NCBI GenBank assembly: GCA_007129495.1
Contig: SKVJ01000039.1
Coordinates: 1-64,000 of the forward strand
DNA: 64,000 nucleotides
Direction of reading: 5' to 3'
From: Dehalococcoidia bacterium
GTDB taxonomy: Bacteria; Chloroflexota; Dehalococcoidia; GIF9; AB-539-J10
In this document: positions 238 through 31,728 of the stretch, one piece after another
How positions within the stretch are numbered: the stretch's first letter is position 1
Layout of the letters: each line of letters opens with the position of its first letter
The notes under the pieces: model-generated
What the model was told of the DNA's origin: nothing
The model's database searches: none
The model's input: only the letters and a program-made list of their open reading frames with translations
Position numbers and translations under genes: made by a program

Positions 238-750
238 ATGAGCAACGGTTCGGCGGAGGGAAGCAGTAGCATCCGTTTCGACACCAGCATTCTTGTCGGA
301 GTGGTCGCGGCGGATTTCACTTCTGACACTTATCCTGGTGTGGGCGCGGCGGTGGCAATCGAACTTGTCCGGGGCACCCAGGTGTGCATCGCAGGAGACA
401 CCGGGCTCACTGGCGAGCGAGTGCGGGACTGGATCGTCAAGAGATTCCTCTCTCTCTGTGTGGATATCGTGCACTTCCGCATCGCCACTACTTCTGCACT
501 CGCTGCTGTACTTGAGGCACCGGGTGTACGCAGGTTCCTGGCATGCCGTCCCACTGTCCACCTGGTTAAGCGCAAGCTTTTGTGCGCCTGGCCTCTCGTG
601 CGGAAGAGAGGCACAGAGATGGTTGTTCGTATCATTTCCGAATCGGTCAGCCAGGACGATAGGGACTGTGCTACAGCCCGCGCTGAATCGGCAGTCTCAT
701 TCCTCATGGAGCAGAAGCCTCGCGGCGCACAGTCGGGAGCAGCGGCTTGA
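238..750 (+). CDS. Shrunken phosphohexomutase (PGM/PMM/GlmM) homologue, probably inactive
   Basis: This 170-residue ORF looks like the two ends of an alpha-D-phosphohexomutase joined in frame. Residues of about 10-90 follow the family's domain I pattern (SIRFDT, then a GRDTR-like AGDTGLTGER, then a VPTPAL-like IATTSAL). The last 60 residues follow domain IV, where the phosphate loop RPSGTEP appears as VRKRGTEM. The TASHNP catalytic serine segment, the metal-binding DGDxDR loop and domains II and III are all missing; the family usually has about 450 residues. I infer it cannot be an active mutase. The frame is open upstream to a TGA at 127-129, so the start could also be TTG 130 or GTG 199; I prefer ATG 238 because homology begins just after it. 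Its stop overlaps the next gene by 4 bases. It may be a decaying gene or a repurposed regulatory protein. Confidence 0.55.
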   Translation: MSNGSAEGSSSIRFDTSILVGVVAADFTSDTYPGVGAAVAIELVRGTQVCIAGDTGLTGERVRDWIVKRFLSLCVDIVHFRIATTSALAAVLEAPGVRRFLACRPTVHLVKRKLLCAWPLVRKRGTEMVVRIISESVSQDDRDCATARAESAVSFLMEQKPRGAQSGAAA

Positions 751-2069
751 AGGCACTGATACTTTGTGGCGGTGTCGGTCGCCGCATGCATCCCCTGCGG
801 GAGGACAAGTTCATGCTTGACCTTGTGGGCCGGCCGCTGCTGCTGCATATGGTGGATATGCTTCGGGATGCCGGTGTGGACGACTTCGTATTCATCGGGA
901 ATGAAGGCAATGCTGAATTGCTGCGAAAGGTAGCCAACGGGCTGGACGAGGTTCGGTGCCAGGTTGTCGTGCAGCGGGAACGGACCGGTATGGCCGGCGC
1001 CGTTGAGGCAGCCGCGAACATCGCCGATGGACCGGTGCTCATCGTCAGTTCGAACGATGTTGTAGACCCCGGAGCCTACAGAAAGATGGTTGAAGCGGCT
1101 GAACAGAGTGAGTGCGATGCAGCAGTACTTGCCTGTAAGGTGAATCACCACTTTCCTGGAGGCTACCTGGTGGTGGACCGAGCGATGCGCGTCAATCGTA
1201 TCGTAGAAAAGCCGGAGCCCGGCACTGAGCCGTCCGATCTCGTCAACGTTGTGGTGCACTTCCACCGCGATGGACGCAAGCTGGTGGAGGCGCTAACCCG
1301 CGCCCCGATGGGGGATAACGACCGCTATGAGGTTGCTCTGTCACACATGATTTCGGATGGCTATTACCTGCTTGCAGTGCCGCACGTGAGCTTCTGGGGC
1401 CCGCTGAAGTACCCGTGGCACATATTCCCGGTGATGGAGTACTTCGTGTGGGGGCTGCGGCGAAGGGTGGCGATGTCCGCACGAGTCGCACCCTGCGCAG
1501 TCATCGAAGGAGCCGTGGTGGTGGCTGAGGATGTCCGGATTCTGGAGAATGCGGTTATTCGTGGGCCGGCGTACATCGGGGAGCGCGCGATCATTGGCAA
1601 CAATGTACTCATCCGTGCGGGATCGCACATCGGCTCGGATACCGTGGTGGGCTTCTCCACTGAGATAAAGCACTCGTATATCGGCCGGAAATGCTGGTTT
1701 CATTCGAACTATATCGGGGATTCGATAGTCGACGACCACTGCTCCTTCGGGAGTAGTGCGGTGACGGCGAACCTTAGGTTCGACGAGGCTACAGTGGAGG
1801 TGACGGTCGATGGTGCCCCTGCGAAGACGAACATGGACAAGCTGGGTGTCATTGTTGGCAACGGAAGCCAGGTGGGCGTTAACGCCAGCCTGATGCCGGG
1901 TGTCGTGGTGGGACCTGGAGCGGTAGTAGGCCCGCATGTGTGTCTGCGGGAGAACCTTGGGCCCGGACGCAGGGCGCTGTCCAGGGCAACGCATATAGTC
2001 GAGGACTTGGGCGAGCGGGCGCCGGTATCGCAACGTGAAGTCATGTGGCACAAGTTAGAAGATGTGTAG
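747..2069 (+). CDS. GlmU-like sugar-1-phosphate nucleotidyltransferase with left-handed beta-helix domain
   Basis: The 440-residue protein has an N-terminal nucleotidyltransferase domain opening with LILCGGVGRRMHPL, an Asp in VSSNDVVD at the usual metal site, and Asn in LVNVVVHF. From about residue 245 it continues into hexapeptide repeats typical of a left-handed beta-helix. The segment HSNYIGD followed by GSSAVTANLRF resembles the acetyltransferase site of GlmU, including its catalytic His. It therefore probably makes an NDP-sugar such as UDP-GlcNAc in the cytoplasm, perhaps with acetylation. The exact sugar cannot be read from the sequence, and archaeal-type bifunctional homologues are equally close in layout. 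It starts with TTG inside the stop of the preceding ORF, which suggests translational coupling. glmS follows about 330 bases downstream, which supports a role in amino-sugar synthesis for the cell envelope. Confidence 0.8.
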   Translation: MKALILCGGVGRRMHPLREDKFMLDLVGRPLLLHMVDMLRDAGVDDFVFIGNEGNAELLRKVANGLDEVRCQVVVQRERTGMAGAVEAAANIADGPVLIVSSNDVVDPGAYRKMVEAAEQSECDAAVLACKVNHHFPGGYLVVDRAMRVNRIVEKPEPGTEPSDLVNVVVHFHRDGRKLVEALTRAPMGDNDRYEVALSHMISDGYYLLAVPHVSFWGPLKYPWHIFPVMEYFVWGLRRRVAMSARVAPCAVIEGAVVVAEDVRILENAVIRGPAYIGERAIIGNNVLIRAGSHIGSDTVVGFSTEIKHSYIGRKCWFHSNYIGDSIVDDHCSFGSSAVTANLRFDEATVEVTVDGAPAKTNMDKLGVIVGNGSQVGVNASLMPGVVVGPGAVVGPHVCLRENLGPGRRALSRATHIVEDLGERAPVSQREVMWHKLEDV

Positions 2070-2401: not shown

Positions 2402-4288
2402 ATGTGCGGAATAATCGGATTCTGTCGTACCAGCGAGATGTGGGTAGCGCCTTCACTTGATTCCGCTGCACCTGTTGTCCCGCTCGTGGGTGCGATGCAT
2501 CAAACCCTGATAGCGAATCACGCTGCAGGAATCAGCGTGCCCATCGCATCGCCCCTCGTTCTCGAAGGATTACGACGTCTGGAGTATCGTGGTTACGACT
2601 CCGCGGGTATTGCGTCGGTGGACAATGGTTCACTGCTCGTACGGAAAGACATCGGCGCCATTGCGGAGGTGGATGCACTGCAGCAACTTGGTCTCATGCC
2701 CGGGACGATTGCTGTTGGACACACACGCTGGGCCACGCATGGCTCCGTGACACAGGCCAATGCGCACCCGCACACTGACATGGCTGGACGGGTGGTGGTG
2801 GTGCACAACGGGATCATTGAGAACTATGAGGAGCTGCGTGACGGATTGCACGCTGAAGGGATAGTCTTCAGGTCTGACACGGATAGCGAGGTTATCCCCC
2901 AGCTGTTTGCCAGGGAACTTGGCGATGGTTGCGCGACACTTGAGGAGGCGGTGCGCCTGGTCTGCCCTCGGCTCCAGGGACCGTACGCCTTTGTCGTACT
3001 CAGTGCTCATGATGGCGGGACGATGATCGGTGTGCGGAAGGGGAACCCCCTCGTGGTGGGATTCTCCGATCACGGTGTCTTCCTGTCCAGTGATGTCCTC
3101 GCCTTCTCTGAGCACGCGCGCTGGATGGTGTCGCTGACGGATGGAGAGATGGCGATAGTGACATCGTCAGGAGTACGTTTTCTAAATCCCGATGGAGTGG
3201 AGGTTGTGAAGATACCGTCCATGGTTGACTGTGTGTGGGCGGATGTTGGCCGGGATGGCTACGGGCACTATATGCTGAAGGAGATTCTTGAGCAGCCGAG
3301 CGTTGTCTCTCGGTGTGGCCATGGGGATAATGATCTTTTGGTAGATGCTGCACTGGCGATACTGGGTGCAAGGCAGGTGGTATTTACCGCATGTGGGACC
3401 TCGCGGCACGCATCACTCATTGGCCGGTACTTCTTCTCTAAGGTGGCCCGACAGTTCTCGGATGTTGTGATGGCGTCAGAATTCGGCTATTTCGCCGCTT
3501 CGCTCAACTCGCAGACCGTCGTAATCGCGGTCTCGCAGAGCGGTGAGACGGCTGACGTGATTGCGGGTGTGAAGCTGGCGAAGGAAGCCGGCGCACGGGT
3601 GGTGAGCGTGGTAAATCGGCCTTCGTGCGTCCTTGCAGAGATGGGAGATTACCTGGTGAAGCTGGGATGCGGCGCCGAGATCGGCGTCGCCGCCACCAAG
3701 ACGTTCACCGGGCAGATCAGTCTCTTCTACCTGTTGGCGCATGCGATGGTGAACAAGCTGCAACTCGGGAGATCGAATCTGGAACAGGCTGGGATACTGC
3801 TTCACGAGCTTCTGCAGGGTTTGGGCGATGGACTCGAGCCATTGGCCTTGAGACTTAGAGACAGGGAACATCTCTACTACATCGGTCGAGGCGTTAACTT
3901 CGCGGTGGCGATGGAGGGCGCGCTCAAGATGAAGGAGATAAGCTACATCCATGCTGAGGGTATGCCTGCGGGAGAGTTGAAGCACGGCACGCTGGCGCTG
4001 ATAGAGAAGGGTACTCCTGTAGTGGCCATTTGTCCGAACGACGAGACACACGCCGAGACAATCAGCAATGCCATGGAGGCCAAGGTACGTGGTGCGTATG
4101 TAATCGGAGTCTCTGATGTCGAGAGCAGAGTGTTTGATCACTGGATACGGATGCCTGCAGTCTCGTCGCTGCTGTATCCGATCATTGCAGTCGCACCGCT
4201 GCAGTTGTTTGCGTACCATATGGCACTGGCTCGAGGCTGCGACCCTGATAGACCTCGGAATCTGGCTAAGTCGGTAACCGTTAAGTGA
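2402..4288 (+). CDS. glmS: Glutamine-fructose-6-phosphate aminotransferase (isomerizing)
   Basis: GlmS makes glucosamine-6-phosphate from fructose-6-phosphate and glutamine, the committed step to UDP-GlcNAc. The N-terminal class II glutaminase starts at MCGIIGF with the catalytic Cys in position 2, so ATG 2402 is chosen over the longer ORF. Two SIS isomerase domains follow (CGTSRHASL; SQSGETADV), and the C-terminus is the canonical LAKSVTV. The protein has 628 residues, somewhat longer than usual. The excess is an extra segment of about 36 residues between MCGIIG and the conserved RLEYRGYDSAG motif, where E. coli GlmS has only about ten residues. This insert lies close to the glutaminase active site and is unexplained. 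A GAAGGAC ribosome binding site precedes the ATG. The gene closes the amino-sugar cluster. Confidence 0.95.
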   Translation: MCGIIGFCRTSEMWVAPSLDSAAPVVPLVGAMHQTLIANHAAGISVPIASPLVLEGLRRLEYRGYDSAGIASVDNGSLLVRKDIGAIAEVDALQQLGLMPGTIAVGHTRWATHGSVTQANAHPHTDMAGRVVVVHNGIIENYEELRDGLHAEGIVFRSDTDSEVIPQLFARELGDGCATLEEAVRLVCPRLQGPYAFVVLSAHDGGTMIGVRKGNPLVVGFSDHGVFLSSDVLAFSEHARWMVSLTDGEMAIVTSSGVRFLNPDGVEVVKIPSMVDCVWADVGRDGYGHYMLKEILEQPSVVSRCGHGDNDLLVDAALAILGARQVVFTACGTSRHASLIGRYFFSKVARQFSDVVMASEFGYFAASLNSQTVVIAVSQSGETADVIAGVKLAKEAGARVVSVVNRPSCVLAEMGDYLVKLGCGAEIGVAATKTFTGQISLFYLLAHAMVNKLQLGRSNLEQAGILLHELLQGLGDGLEPLALRLRDREHLYYIGRGVNFAVAMEGALKMKEISYIHAEGMPAGELKHGTLALIEKGTPVVAICPNDETHAETISNAMEAKVRGAYVIGVSDVESRVFDHWIRMPAVSSLLYPIIAVAPLQLFAYHMALARGCDPDRPRNLAKSVTVK

Positions 4289-4641: not shown

Positions 4642-5796
4642 CTACGATTCCGGTTCATATTGGTCCTCCGGAACGTGTGTTGCCATCAAGCTGAGTGTCC
4701 TGACGATACGCGCCACGTTTTCGCCGTCCAGGTATGGATGCATCGGGAGGAAGACCAGTTCGGACGCCACACGATCGGTGTTCGGAAGATGCGCGGTGTC
4801 GTGACCGGCTATGGCCTGGTAGAACGGATGCTGGTGCAGAGGCAGCAGCGGACAACATGACGATTCAATTCCTTGAGAGAGAAGCTCACGGCAGACATCC
4901 TGCGGCGTGAATTGGAACTCGGGTGTCACCCGCAATGCATAGCGCTGGAACGCGTGCCGGGATCCTGGTAGCACCGCCGGTGTGACGAGGCCATCCCATT
5001 GCTTGAGTCCATGTGTGAGCTCCATGGCCCACAACATCTGAATCTCCGCGTGTGTGTCCGCCCGAATCAACCGCTCCAACGCCAATGACGCCGTAGTATC
5101 CGTCATGCGGTAGTCAAACCCTGGTCGGCATATCCGGCCACTACCGTCGCAGCCGTGGTTGGCCAAACTCCGGACCAGAGCCGCTACCTCGTCATTGTCT
5201 GTCGTCAACATTCCACCGCCATCCTCCCCTGCTGACAGCCCTTGCTGGAACGAGTAGCACGTTGTCCCGTATCGTCCGACGTGGCTGTCGTGGTACTTCG
5301 CCCCCAGGGCCTCCCATGCAACCTCGATAAGGCCGAGCCCATACCGCTCCGCAATATCAGCCATCGCATCCATGTCACATACCTGTCCGAATGCATGGAC
5401 AGCAAGCAGAACACCGGGGCGATTTGCGGATCGCATCTGTGTGATGGCCCGCTCGGCTTCCAGCGGAGCAATGGTCAGAGTATAAGGATTGATATCGGCG
5501 AAAACTGTTGTGGCGCCGACAGCCGTCACCGCGCAGCCAACGGCGGGAAGACATAACGGTGATGTGATTACTCCACAACCACCGCTCACGCCATGGGCGA
5601 GCAATGCCAAATGCAACGCGGCTGTTCCGGAATTCAGCGCCACCGCATGGCGCGCTCCGGTGTATTCGTTGAACTTCTGTTCGAGGCCCACCACCACTCC
5701 CTCGTTTTGGTTGAGATTGTCTGCCCGAATCCCGCACTTCACCGCGTCTATTCCAAGGCGACAAACGTATGGCCCGGTAACACTGATGAGATTCAT
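4642..5796 (-). CDS. DegT/DnrJ/EryC1/StrS-fold protein lacking the PLP lysine
   Basis: The 384-residue protein follows the DegT/StrS sugar aminotransferase family throughout: the N-terminal NSGTAALHLAL cofactor loop, the FADINPYTL segment, HAFGQVCDMDAM, and the RMTDTTASLALERL region. Two catalytic positions have changed. The EDAAQALG motif, whose Asp contacts the pyridine nitrogen, reads EVAWEALG. The SFxxTK motif that carries the Schiff-base lysine reads SFQQGLSAGEDGG, with no Lys and a two-residue shortening. I confirmed the codons on the minus strand. The family normally makes amino sugars on nucleotide carriers; this copy is probably not a transaminase and could be a pseudoenzyme or a dehydratase-like variant. 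The start at 5796 is chosen for the GGAGG upstream. It stands alone, convergent with glmS, in gene-poor DNA. Confidence 0.75.
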   Translation of the reverse strand: MNLISVTGPYVCRLGIDAVKCGIRADNLNQNEGVVVGLEQKFNEYTGARHAVALNSGTAALHLALLAHGVSGGCGVITSPLCLPAVGCAVTAVGATTVFADINPYTLTIAPLEAERAITQMRSANRPGVLLAVHAFGQVCDMDAMADIAERYGLGLIEVAWEALGAKYHDSHVGRYGTTCYSFQQGLSAGEDGGGMLTTDNDEVAALVRSLANHGCDGSGRICRPGFDYRMTDTTASLALERLIRADTHAEIQMLWAMELTHGLKQWDGLVTPAVLPGSRHAFQRYALRVTPEFQFTPQDVCRELLSQGIESSCCPLLPLHQHPFYQAIAGHDTAHLPNTDRVASELVFLPMHPYLDGENVARIVRTLSLMATHVPEDQYEPES

Positions 5797-6615
5797 CAGG
5801 TGTCCTTTCCTCCATTTCTTTATTGCATGCGGCGCGATTAACGCCGTTACGCTCAATTGTGCCTGCCAGGGCTTGGGTTATGAGTTCCCCGCAGGAGAAG
5901 AAGGGACCAGTCCGTTGATTCGGGCGCGTTTCAGACATGTCGGCCCGCAAAATCGCGTGCCGGCAAGAATATGATGATGGGTATGCACTCAGGTCACACC
6001 GAGCACATCGTCTGTCGGGAGGAGCCGCCTCGTGGGTTGATGACATCGTGTTATATGGCGGCAAGTTAGCTTAACCATACTCTGTTACTTGCGGTTGATA
6101 CAAATGCAAACATAGGAGTTTGGTCATGTTTGCCCCGCAAATTGGTACAGGGAAGGGTTTTGCTGCCCATACCAGTACCTCCGCTGTGGCTGGTACACGG
6201 ATCGGGTCTCTGCAATCTGAATTCCGACTCACTTGAACCTGATAACAGTACCACTTCGCCCTGTCCCTTGCTGTCTGGTGGGTTCAATTACAGTCGACTA
6301 ATCCGTTGCCTGGCAATCCCACAACAGGTTCGGCTACACCATGGACAACACTGCTGCAATGGTGCAGCCTCTGCGTTTGGATGGCTTTCCAGCGGACTTT
6401 CCATCTGGAATCACGCCTAGGGACTTGCCTTTGTGGATGGACAGGTTAATGGAGGGCGCATGGCTGGCAGCTGATTGGAATGCTGCACCGCTGCTTCCTT
6501 AGCTTCGTTCTGTGGCCTTTCCACCTGCCAGGGCAATGCTGCTCCAGGTCCTCGCACTGGTGTCGCGTCGCGGTGAGGTGACCGGCACATGCATAAAAGG
6601 ATAGACTAAGCGTGG
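5797..6615. other. Gene-poor stretch between the DegT-like gene and dxs
   Basis: These 819 bases contain no recognisable gene of normal length. The ORFs in the track (5489-5974, 5375-6064 minus, 6066-6287 minus, 6130-6420, 6446-6970 minus) have low-complexity, shadow-like translations. One short plus-strand ORF at 6341-6502 is listed separately. The stretch must hold the promoters of dxs (plus) and of the DegT-like gene (minus), but I see no strong -35/-10 pair. Confidence 0.5.
6341..6502 (+). CDS. Possible 53-residue protein, unknown
   Basis: This ATG-to-TAG ORF is below the length limit of the ORF track. Its translation has a natural-looking composition, with a central ITPRDLPLWMDRLMEG segment and several Trp residues, unlike the shadow ORFs around it. 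There is no good ribosome binding site (only AGG about 14 bases upstream) and I recognise no family. It may be a small protein, a gene remnant or chance. Confidence 0.2.
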   Translation: MDNTAAMVQPLRLDGFPADFPSGITPRDLPLWMDRLMEGAWLAADWNAAPLLP

Positions 6616-8460
6616 ATGAACGATATCGGGTCGCTGAATGATAGTGAGGTGAAGCATCTTTGCGATAAGCTGCGAAGCCGTATTGTGGACACTGTCGAGC
6701 AAACAGGCGGGCATCTGTCGTCGAGCCTGGGAGCGGTCGAATTGACTGTGGCGCTTCACCGTGTGTTTGACTCTGCGCAGGATCGGATCCTCTGGGATGT
6801 TGGACATCAGTCATACGCGCACAAGCTTCTGACCGGAAGGGATGACGTGTTCGACACCCTGCGGCAGTACGGGGGTCTTTCGGGATTTCCTGATCCGGAG
6901 GAAAGTGAACACGATGCATTTGTGGCCGGTCACGCCGGTAACGCGCTGTCTGCAGCATTGGGTCTTGCACTGGCCCGCGATAGGGCGAAGGAATCGCATG
7001 ACGTTATAGCGGTGGTTGGTGACGGTTCACTCACTGCAGGGATGTCCTATGAGGCGCTGAATCACGCTGGGCAGGCGGGTTCGCGCCTGATAATCGTTCT
7101 GAACGACAACGGGATGTCCATCTCGCCCACCGCCGGATCACTTGCCCGGCGATTGCATATGCTGCGTACCGATGCGCGCTATTCAGGGCTCAAACGTGGT
7201 GCCGACGATGCTTTGATCAGGTTCCCACAAGGAGAACGCTTCAGGTGGGTGGTGCAGCGGTTTAAGGTAGGCGTCAAGAGTATGGTGATACCGGTAATGC
7301 TCTTCGAGGAACTCGGAATCACATATCTCGGTCCGGCTGATGGCCACGATGTGGGTTCCGTTGAGAGTTTGTTGCAGCGTGCACGTACTCTTCATGGTCC
7401 TGTCGTGGTCCACGTGGTCACTCACAAGGGCAAGGGTTACGAGCCCGCGGAACGTGACCCGGTGCGGTACCATGGCGTATCTCCGTGTATCGAACGGGAG
7501 ATTAACGGCGAGACATACAGCTCTGTATTCGCATCGTCGCTTCGGAACTTGTTACAGCGTGACCCTCGTATCGTGGTGGTTACTGCGGCGATGCTGGATG
7601 GAACGGGACTCGCTGATCTGGGTCGTGAATATCCGGGGCGGATCATTGATGTCGGTATATCTGAGCAACATGCCGTGACACTGGCGGGAGGACTCGCTGC
7701 GGGTGGTTTGCGACCCGTAGTGGCCATCTACTCCACGTTCCTGCAGAGGGCGTTCGACCAGATAGTGCACGATGTATGTCTACCGAACCTGCCGGTGGTC
7801 TTCGCTATCGACCGCGCAGGCATTGTAGGCGAAGACGGGAAGACGCACCAGGGCATCTTCGATCTCGGCTATCTTGGGCTGATGCCTGATATGACGGTTC
7901 TGGCACCAAGGGATGGATGGCACTTGTCCGCGATGCTGGAGTGGGCGCTGCGATGCGACGGACCGGTGGCGTTGAGATATCCCCGTGCGCGCGTCCCCGA
8001 ACCGGTTGAGTGTCTGTGGGACGCCACTGATTATCGTCCGTCGATGGAACTGCTTCGGCAGGGGGATGACGCGCTCGTAGTTGCTCTGGGTTCCATGGTG
8101 TCCCCCGCACTGGAAGCGGCGCACGCATTGAGTCATCTGGGAATTAAGGTTGCGGTGATAGACGCGTGCATAGCTCATCCACTGGATGCCGCCGCGATCT
8201 GTGCGGAAGCGGCACGGTACAGCCTCGTGATCACAGTTGAGGAACACGTACGAACCGGCGGCTTCGGTTCCCGGATTGTGACATCGTTGCAGGATGCCGG
8301 GCTGCATGGTATACGCGTGCATCGGTTAGGAGTGCCGGACTGCTTTGTGACGCATGGTTCACGCGAGGCGGTGCTTGCGCACTTGTGCCTTGATGCAGAA
8401 GGCATTCGCCGCGCCTGTATGCAGGCGCTTGACCAGGTGCATCCGAAATCGACACGTTAG
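6616..8460 (+). CDS. dxs: 1-deoxy-D-xylulose-5-phosphate synthase
   Basis: DXS condenses pyruvate with glyceraldehyde-3-phosphate using thiamine diphosphate, the first step of the MEP route to isoprenoids. The 614-residue protein has the transketolase-like start TGGHLSSSLGAVELTVALH, the WDVGHQSYAHKLLTGR motif, and the cofactor-binding GDGSLTAGMSYEALNHAG ending in LNDNGMSISP. The C-terminal half contains the pyrimidine domain with DVGISEQHAVTLAGG and the transketolase C-terminal domain. Length is close to the family norm. The start is ATG 6616, with AAAAGGA upstream. The gene converges on argS with only 6 bases between the stop codons, so there is no room for a terminator and the two transcripts must overlap or end inside each other. 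Confidence 0.95.
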   Translation: MNDIGSLNDSEVKHLCDKLRSRIVDTVEQTGGHLSSSLGAVELTVALHRVFDSAQDRILWDVGHQSYAHKLLTGRDDVFDTLRQYGGLSGFPDPEESEHDAFVAGHAGNALSAALGLALARDRAKESHDVIAVVGDGSLTAGMSYEALNHAGQAGSRLIIVLNDNGMSISPTAGSLARRLHMLRTDARYSGLKRGADDALIRFPQGERFRWVVQRFKVGVKSMVIPVMLFEELGITYLGPADGHDVGSVESLLQRARTLHGPVVVHVVTHKGKGYEPAERDPVRYHGVSPCIEREINGETYSSVFASSLRNLLQRDPRIVVVTAAMLDGTGLADLGREYPGRIIDVGISEQHAVTLAGGLAAGGLRPVVAIYSTFLQRAFDQIVHDVCLPNLPVVFAIDRAGIVGEDGKTHQGIFDLGYLGLMPDMTVLAPRDGWHLSAMLEWALRCDGPVALRYPRARVPEPVECLWDATDYRPSMELLRQGDDALVVALGSMVSPALEAAHALSHLGIKVAVIDACIAHPLDAAAICAEAARYSLVITVEEHVRTGGFGSRIVTSLQDAGLHGIRVHRLGVPDCFVTHGSREAVLAHLCLDAEGIRRACMQALDQVHPKSTR

Positions 8461-31654: not shown

Positions 31655-31728
31655 TGGGGATTAGTCTAGCGGTAGGACGACTGACTCTGGATCAGTTAGG
31701 CCAGGTTCGAATCCTGGATCCCCAGCCA
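31655..31728 (+). tRNA. tRNA-Gln (anticodon CTG)
   Basis: The 74 bases fold into a full cloverleaf: acceptor stem TGGGGAT/ATCCCCA, a 4-bp D stem, anticodon stem ACTGA/TCAGT around the loop CTCTGGA, and T stem CCAGG/CCTGG with the loop TTCGAAT. The anticodon CTG reads CAG (glutamine). The CCA end is encoded. gatB of the Glu-tRNA(Gln)/Asp-tRNA(Asn) amidotransferase is in the same window, so this tRNA may be charged by the indirect route. Confidence 0.96.

Follow-up and report, generated by a model that had tools for sequence, protein, structure and literature searches.

A probable pseudo-aminotransferase of the DegT family conserved within a genus of Dehalococcoidia

Introduction

The contacts made with PLP by a DegT-family enzyme have been described for Spr1654, in which Lys199 binds the cofactor covalently, Asp170 contacts N1 and His173 contacts O3', with Tyr84 at the ring (Trp in ArnB, Phe in PseC) and Ser194 and Thr59 at the phosphate (PMC5936713). 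Fold-type-I proteins that lack the Lys are already known, among them ColD and SPT1. The nucleotide-sugar 3-dehydratases ColD and E1 have the DegT fold with a His at the Lys position, retain the Asp and use PMP (PMC8987622). SPT1/LCB1, the non-catalytic subunit of serine palmitoyltransferase, is a fold-type-I protein that has been retained without the PLP Lys (PMC6148460). The MocR regulators of the GntR family use a fold-type-I domain within a regulatory protein (PMC6677901).

Here we describe a gene in the first 64,000 nucleotides of contig SKVJ01000039.1 from a Dehalococcoidia bacterium (the window) whose product shares some features with each of these systems and differs in others. It has in common with ArnB, GDP-perosamine synthase, WbpE and PseC the SGT helix, Ser182, the GG and PLH motifs and the whole fold, but is without their Schiff-base Lys, N1 Asp, ring aromatic and O3' His or Gln. 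Like ColD and E1 it combines the DegT fold with the absence of the Lys, but the Asp is also absent and residue 187 is not a His. It differs from SPT1/LCB1 in that those proteins are heterodimer subunits of the eukaryotic alpha-oxoamine synthase family (PMC6148460), and from MocR in being a single DegT domain rather than carrying an N-terminal winged-helix DNA-binding domain (PMC6677901). In the open-licence papers searched we found no report of a DegT pseudoenzyme, nor of a DegT protein retained across species despite the combined loss of the Lys, the Asp and the aromatic at the ring.

The gene and its product

The open reading frame occupies positions 4642-5796 on the minus strand, with an ATG at 5796 and a stop at 4644-4642, and encodes a protein of 384 residues. 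A ribosome-binding site, ggaggaaagg, lies upstream of the ATG at 5804-5813 (minus strand), and a GGAGG is similarly placed in three orthologues and thus precedes the start of all four genes. In a Pfam profile search the protein matched PF01041 over residues 35-368 with 248 bits (E 2e-73), the gathering cut-off being 19.8 bits, and it falls far under every NCBIfam equivalog cut-off. Among proteins of solved structure, the best sequence matches were GDP-perosamine synthase and further sugar aminotransferases of the DegT family. An AlphaFold2 model (pLDDT 85, pTM 0.85, residues 187-191 below 50) gave ArnB and GDP-perosamine synthase as top Foldseek matches, with TM of about 0.86 and 26-32% identity, and together with the profile match this places the protein within the DegT/DnrJ/EryC1/StrS fold. 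A model of the orthologue from genome G002 was similar, with low confidence in the same Lys-loop region. These models point to an intact fold, in agreement with the original prediction.

Loss of the cofactor site

The same prediction held that the Asp of the EDAAQALG motif is Val and that the Schiff-base region contains neither Lys nor a ColD-type His, and both statements were borne out. The motif reads EVAWEALG, with Val159 encoded by GTT at 5320-5322 (minus strand; position computed from the ATG at 5796). The one-time Schiff-base loop, residues 182-193 (SFQQGLSAGEDG; 5218-5253, minus strand), is modelled with low confidence, and within SFQQGLSAGEDGGG the Lys column is occupied by Leu187.

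The Spr1654 contacts Lys199, Asp170, His173, Tyr84, Ser194 and Thr59 were mapped by motif to residues 187, 159, 162, 83, 182 and 58 of the window protein. Across the four species column 187 holds L, M, G and M, and Val159 is present in every one; Phe83 has become Leu and Gln162 has become Glu or Asp. The two phosphate anchors, Thr58 and Ser182, are present in all four, as is Gly194, and His321 is also kept. When the four genes were compared with 35 Lys-containing relatives, 101 columns were conserved (at least 90%) in the relatives, with 51 kept in all four genes and 25 altered in all four. The same new residue is shared by the four species in 17 of these 25: F81L, F83L, D159V, H164L, F181Y, T186G, R212A, Y220G, G239A, R253Q, V282A, H284Q, Q285R, T287A, R298P, Y316P and E341D. 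All four ring and Schiff-base contacts of the relatives (F83, D159, Q162 and K187) fall in the altered set in every species, an enrichment with a hypergeometric P of 0.003 that was calculated post hoc. The suggestion that this is a pseudoenzyme is supported, but the change is not confined to the two residues first noted, since the whole pyridine-ring pocket has been rebuilt around phosphate anchors that stay.

A relocated Lys was considered and tentatively rejected; the sole Lys invariant in the clade, Lys265, lies just past a modelled helix (246-264) in a column that is variable in relatives. The four genes share the cysteines C82, C216, C302 and C314 without exception, and C82, C302 and C314 are absent from the aligned relatives.

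Orthologues, selection and origin

Genome searches recovered three orthologues from congeneric species, at 53-60% identity, in G002 (PWUU01000115.1), G004 (PUON01000052.1) and G001 (PWUO01000292.1), all recorded as Dehalococcoidia MAGs with the isolate prefixes CSSed11 and B1Sed10, which are dataset names from a study of soda-lake sediment (PMC6146748). The conservation sample is thus four orthologues including the window copy, all from metagenome-assembled genomes. The pseudoenzyme reading would have failed had close homologues all possessed the Lys; on the contrary, all three read EV.W at the Asp site and are without Lys (SFQQGMSIVTGQGG, SFQDGMSIITGEGG and SFPQGGHIAGSDGG). The Val159 codon differs, being GTT in the window and GTG, GTC and GTG in the orthologues, and the four genes contain no stops. 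In G003, of the same genus, an orthologue was not found, and glmS and dxs lie on separate contigs; that genome may have lost the gene or never had it, or the MAG may simply not include it.

Identity among the four genes is 0.66-0.78 at first, 0.73-0.86 at second and 0.34-0.43 at third codon positions. Omega is about 0.06, close to the 0.08 obtained with four Lys-containing members of the family and to the 0.046 of glmS, and dxs gives 0.04; these values are approximate, with synonymous sites and third codon positions near saturation. Such values do not fit neutral decay and indicate that the gene is under purifying selection.

The four genes cluster together in the tree with support of 100/100. 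A homologue in G005, of the same genus (L035:6960-8078, minus strand), is their sister with support of 97/99 in one tree and 97/96 in another, the latter flagging long branches and leaving the join uncertain. In this homologue the Lys is Ala and Phe83 is Leu, Asp159 and Gln162 are kept, and there is a gap around 213-224 and a divergent C-terminal part. It may represent an intermediate or a separate decay, and its loss of Lys and aromatic with retention of the Asp suggests a stepwise loss of the cofactor site. Outside the genus all DegT homologues examined keep the Asp and nearly all keep the Lys, the Lys-less ones having His at that place (VAH..TGVGG) in the ColD/E1 pattern. The series from Asp and Lys, through Asp without Lys (G005), to neither (four species) could trace the steps by which an enzyme became a pseudoenzyme inside a single bacterial genus. 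A viral origin was rejected, a scan of viral contigs having yielded just 26-30% homologues.

Genomic neighbourhood

The gene stands as a separate transcription unit, convergent with glmS (glutamine--fructose-6-phosphate transaminase; 2402-4288, plus strand) and divergent from dxs (6616-8460, plus strand), and a GlmU-like sugar-1-phosphate nucleotidylyltransferase/acetyltransferase (747-2069, plus strand) lies in the same cluster here and in relatives. The flanking by glmS and dxs is repeated in G002. The dxs side is also the same in G001, where the contig stops before any glmS, and in G004 the contig starts near the gene and glmS is about 5 kb distant. In G019 and G008 a Lys-containing homologue directly adjoins glmS and the nucleotidylyltransferase gene, and in G012 it is found near them. 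In G012 and G004 glmS and the DegT gene are separated by an NAD-dependent epimerase/dehydratase gene, which in G005 is some 5 kb away from the DegT gene; its best homologues elsewhere are 31% identical in the window's genome and 32-38% in G002. From the position of the Lys-containing members beside glmS and the nucleotidylyltransferase gene, the tree placement and this epimerase context, we infer that the ancestor was an amino-sugar aminotransferase whose catalytic site was dismantled within this genus.

Probable function and alternatives

It is likely that 4642-5796 encodes a conserved DegT pseudo-aminotransferase that can neither form an internal aldimine nor transaminate. PLP aminotransferase activity is very unlikely from the residues present, because the known mechanism of transamination needs those that are missing. 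The protein probably descends from a PLP-dependent nucleotide-amino-sugar aminotransferase whose gene, in the same Dehalococcoidia family, adjoins glmS and the glmU-like gene. It keeps the fold-type-I fold of the sugar aminotransferases and presumably the dimer, and has lost the aromatic stacking residue, the N1 Asp, the O3' residue and the Schiff-base Lys. The remodelled pocket may bind a metabolite that carries a phosphate (a nucleotide sugar, perhaps, or a hexosamine phosphate), and such binding could regulate or scaffold the metabolism of amino sugars, for instance at the GlmS/GlmU step encoded next to it. A sensor function, as first proposed, is plausible; the regulatory role taken alone is put forward only tentatively. 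Conserved synteny could be plain genome conservatism, and the anchor residues may have been kept for structural reasons.

A non-catalytic subunit that joins a Lys-containing DegT aminotransferase, completing its interface site and stabilising or regulating the active partner as SPT1/LCB1 does with SPT2/LCB2, is a rather unlikely alternative, even though the active sites of fold-type-I enzymes are located where the two subunits of the dimer meet and the Lys-less SPT1 partners SPT2 (PMC6148460). The window's genome does contain one other DegT protein, with Lys (C4:12441), but this candidate partner belongs to a different DegT clade at an unlinked locus and has a close homologue in a genus-mate without a detected pseudo-aminotransferase gene (G006, L016). 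That the rebuilt site in the old aminotransferase fold carries out new PLP-independent chemistry, or binds metal, on a nucleotide or amino sugar is quite unlikely, and slightly less likely again is a PLP-independent enzyme whose substrate is a nucleotide sugar or a phosphorylated sugar and in which C82, C216, C314, E/D162, H321 and R285 form a new site that might bind metal. The 17 columns switched to a single new residue and the clade-invariant cysteines speak for such an activity, but the one-time Lys loop varies between the species and is disordered in the models, and no new pathway gene adjoins the gene. A ligand-binding regulator is favoured over both because the phosphate anchors and His321 are kept and the neighbourhood is one of amino-sugar genes.

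Lys-less DegT members with His do exist, yet a PMP-dependent dehydratase of the ColD/E1 kind, tolerating loss of both the His or Lys and the Asp, is highly improbable, as the known examples keep the Asp and the catalytic His and here the ring aromatic is gone as well. A recently dead gene, or an error of assembly or sequencing, is hardly credible. The window copy has indeed diverged further than its orthologues, with five residues inserted near residue 122, but this explanation was rejected on the same losses in three other assemblies, the differing Val codons, the lack of stops, the low omega and the conserved GGAGG. Because no fewer than four species have retained the altered form, a new role is most likely, rather than a broken gene. 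For this clade the automatic label 'DegT/DnrJ/EryC1/StrS aminotransferase' is misleading.

Other features of the window

The start of GlmS is probably the MCGI at 2402 rather than at 2378, and the window GlmS is longer than its orthologues in G002 and G004 by about 32 residues, which fall between MCGIIGFC and LVLEGLRRLEYRGYDSAG. A tRNA at 31655-31725 (plus strand) is the sole match at Rfam gathering level in the window.
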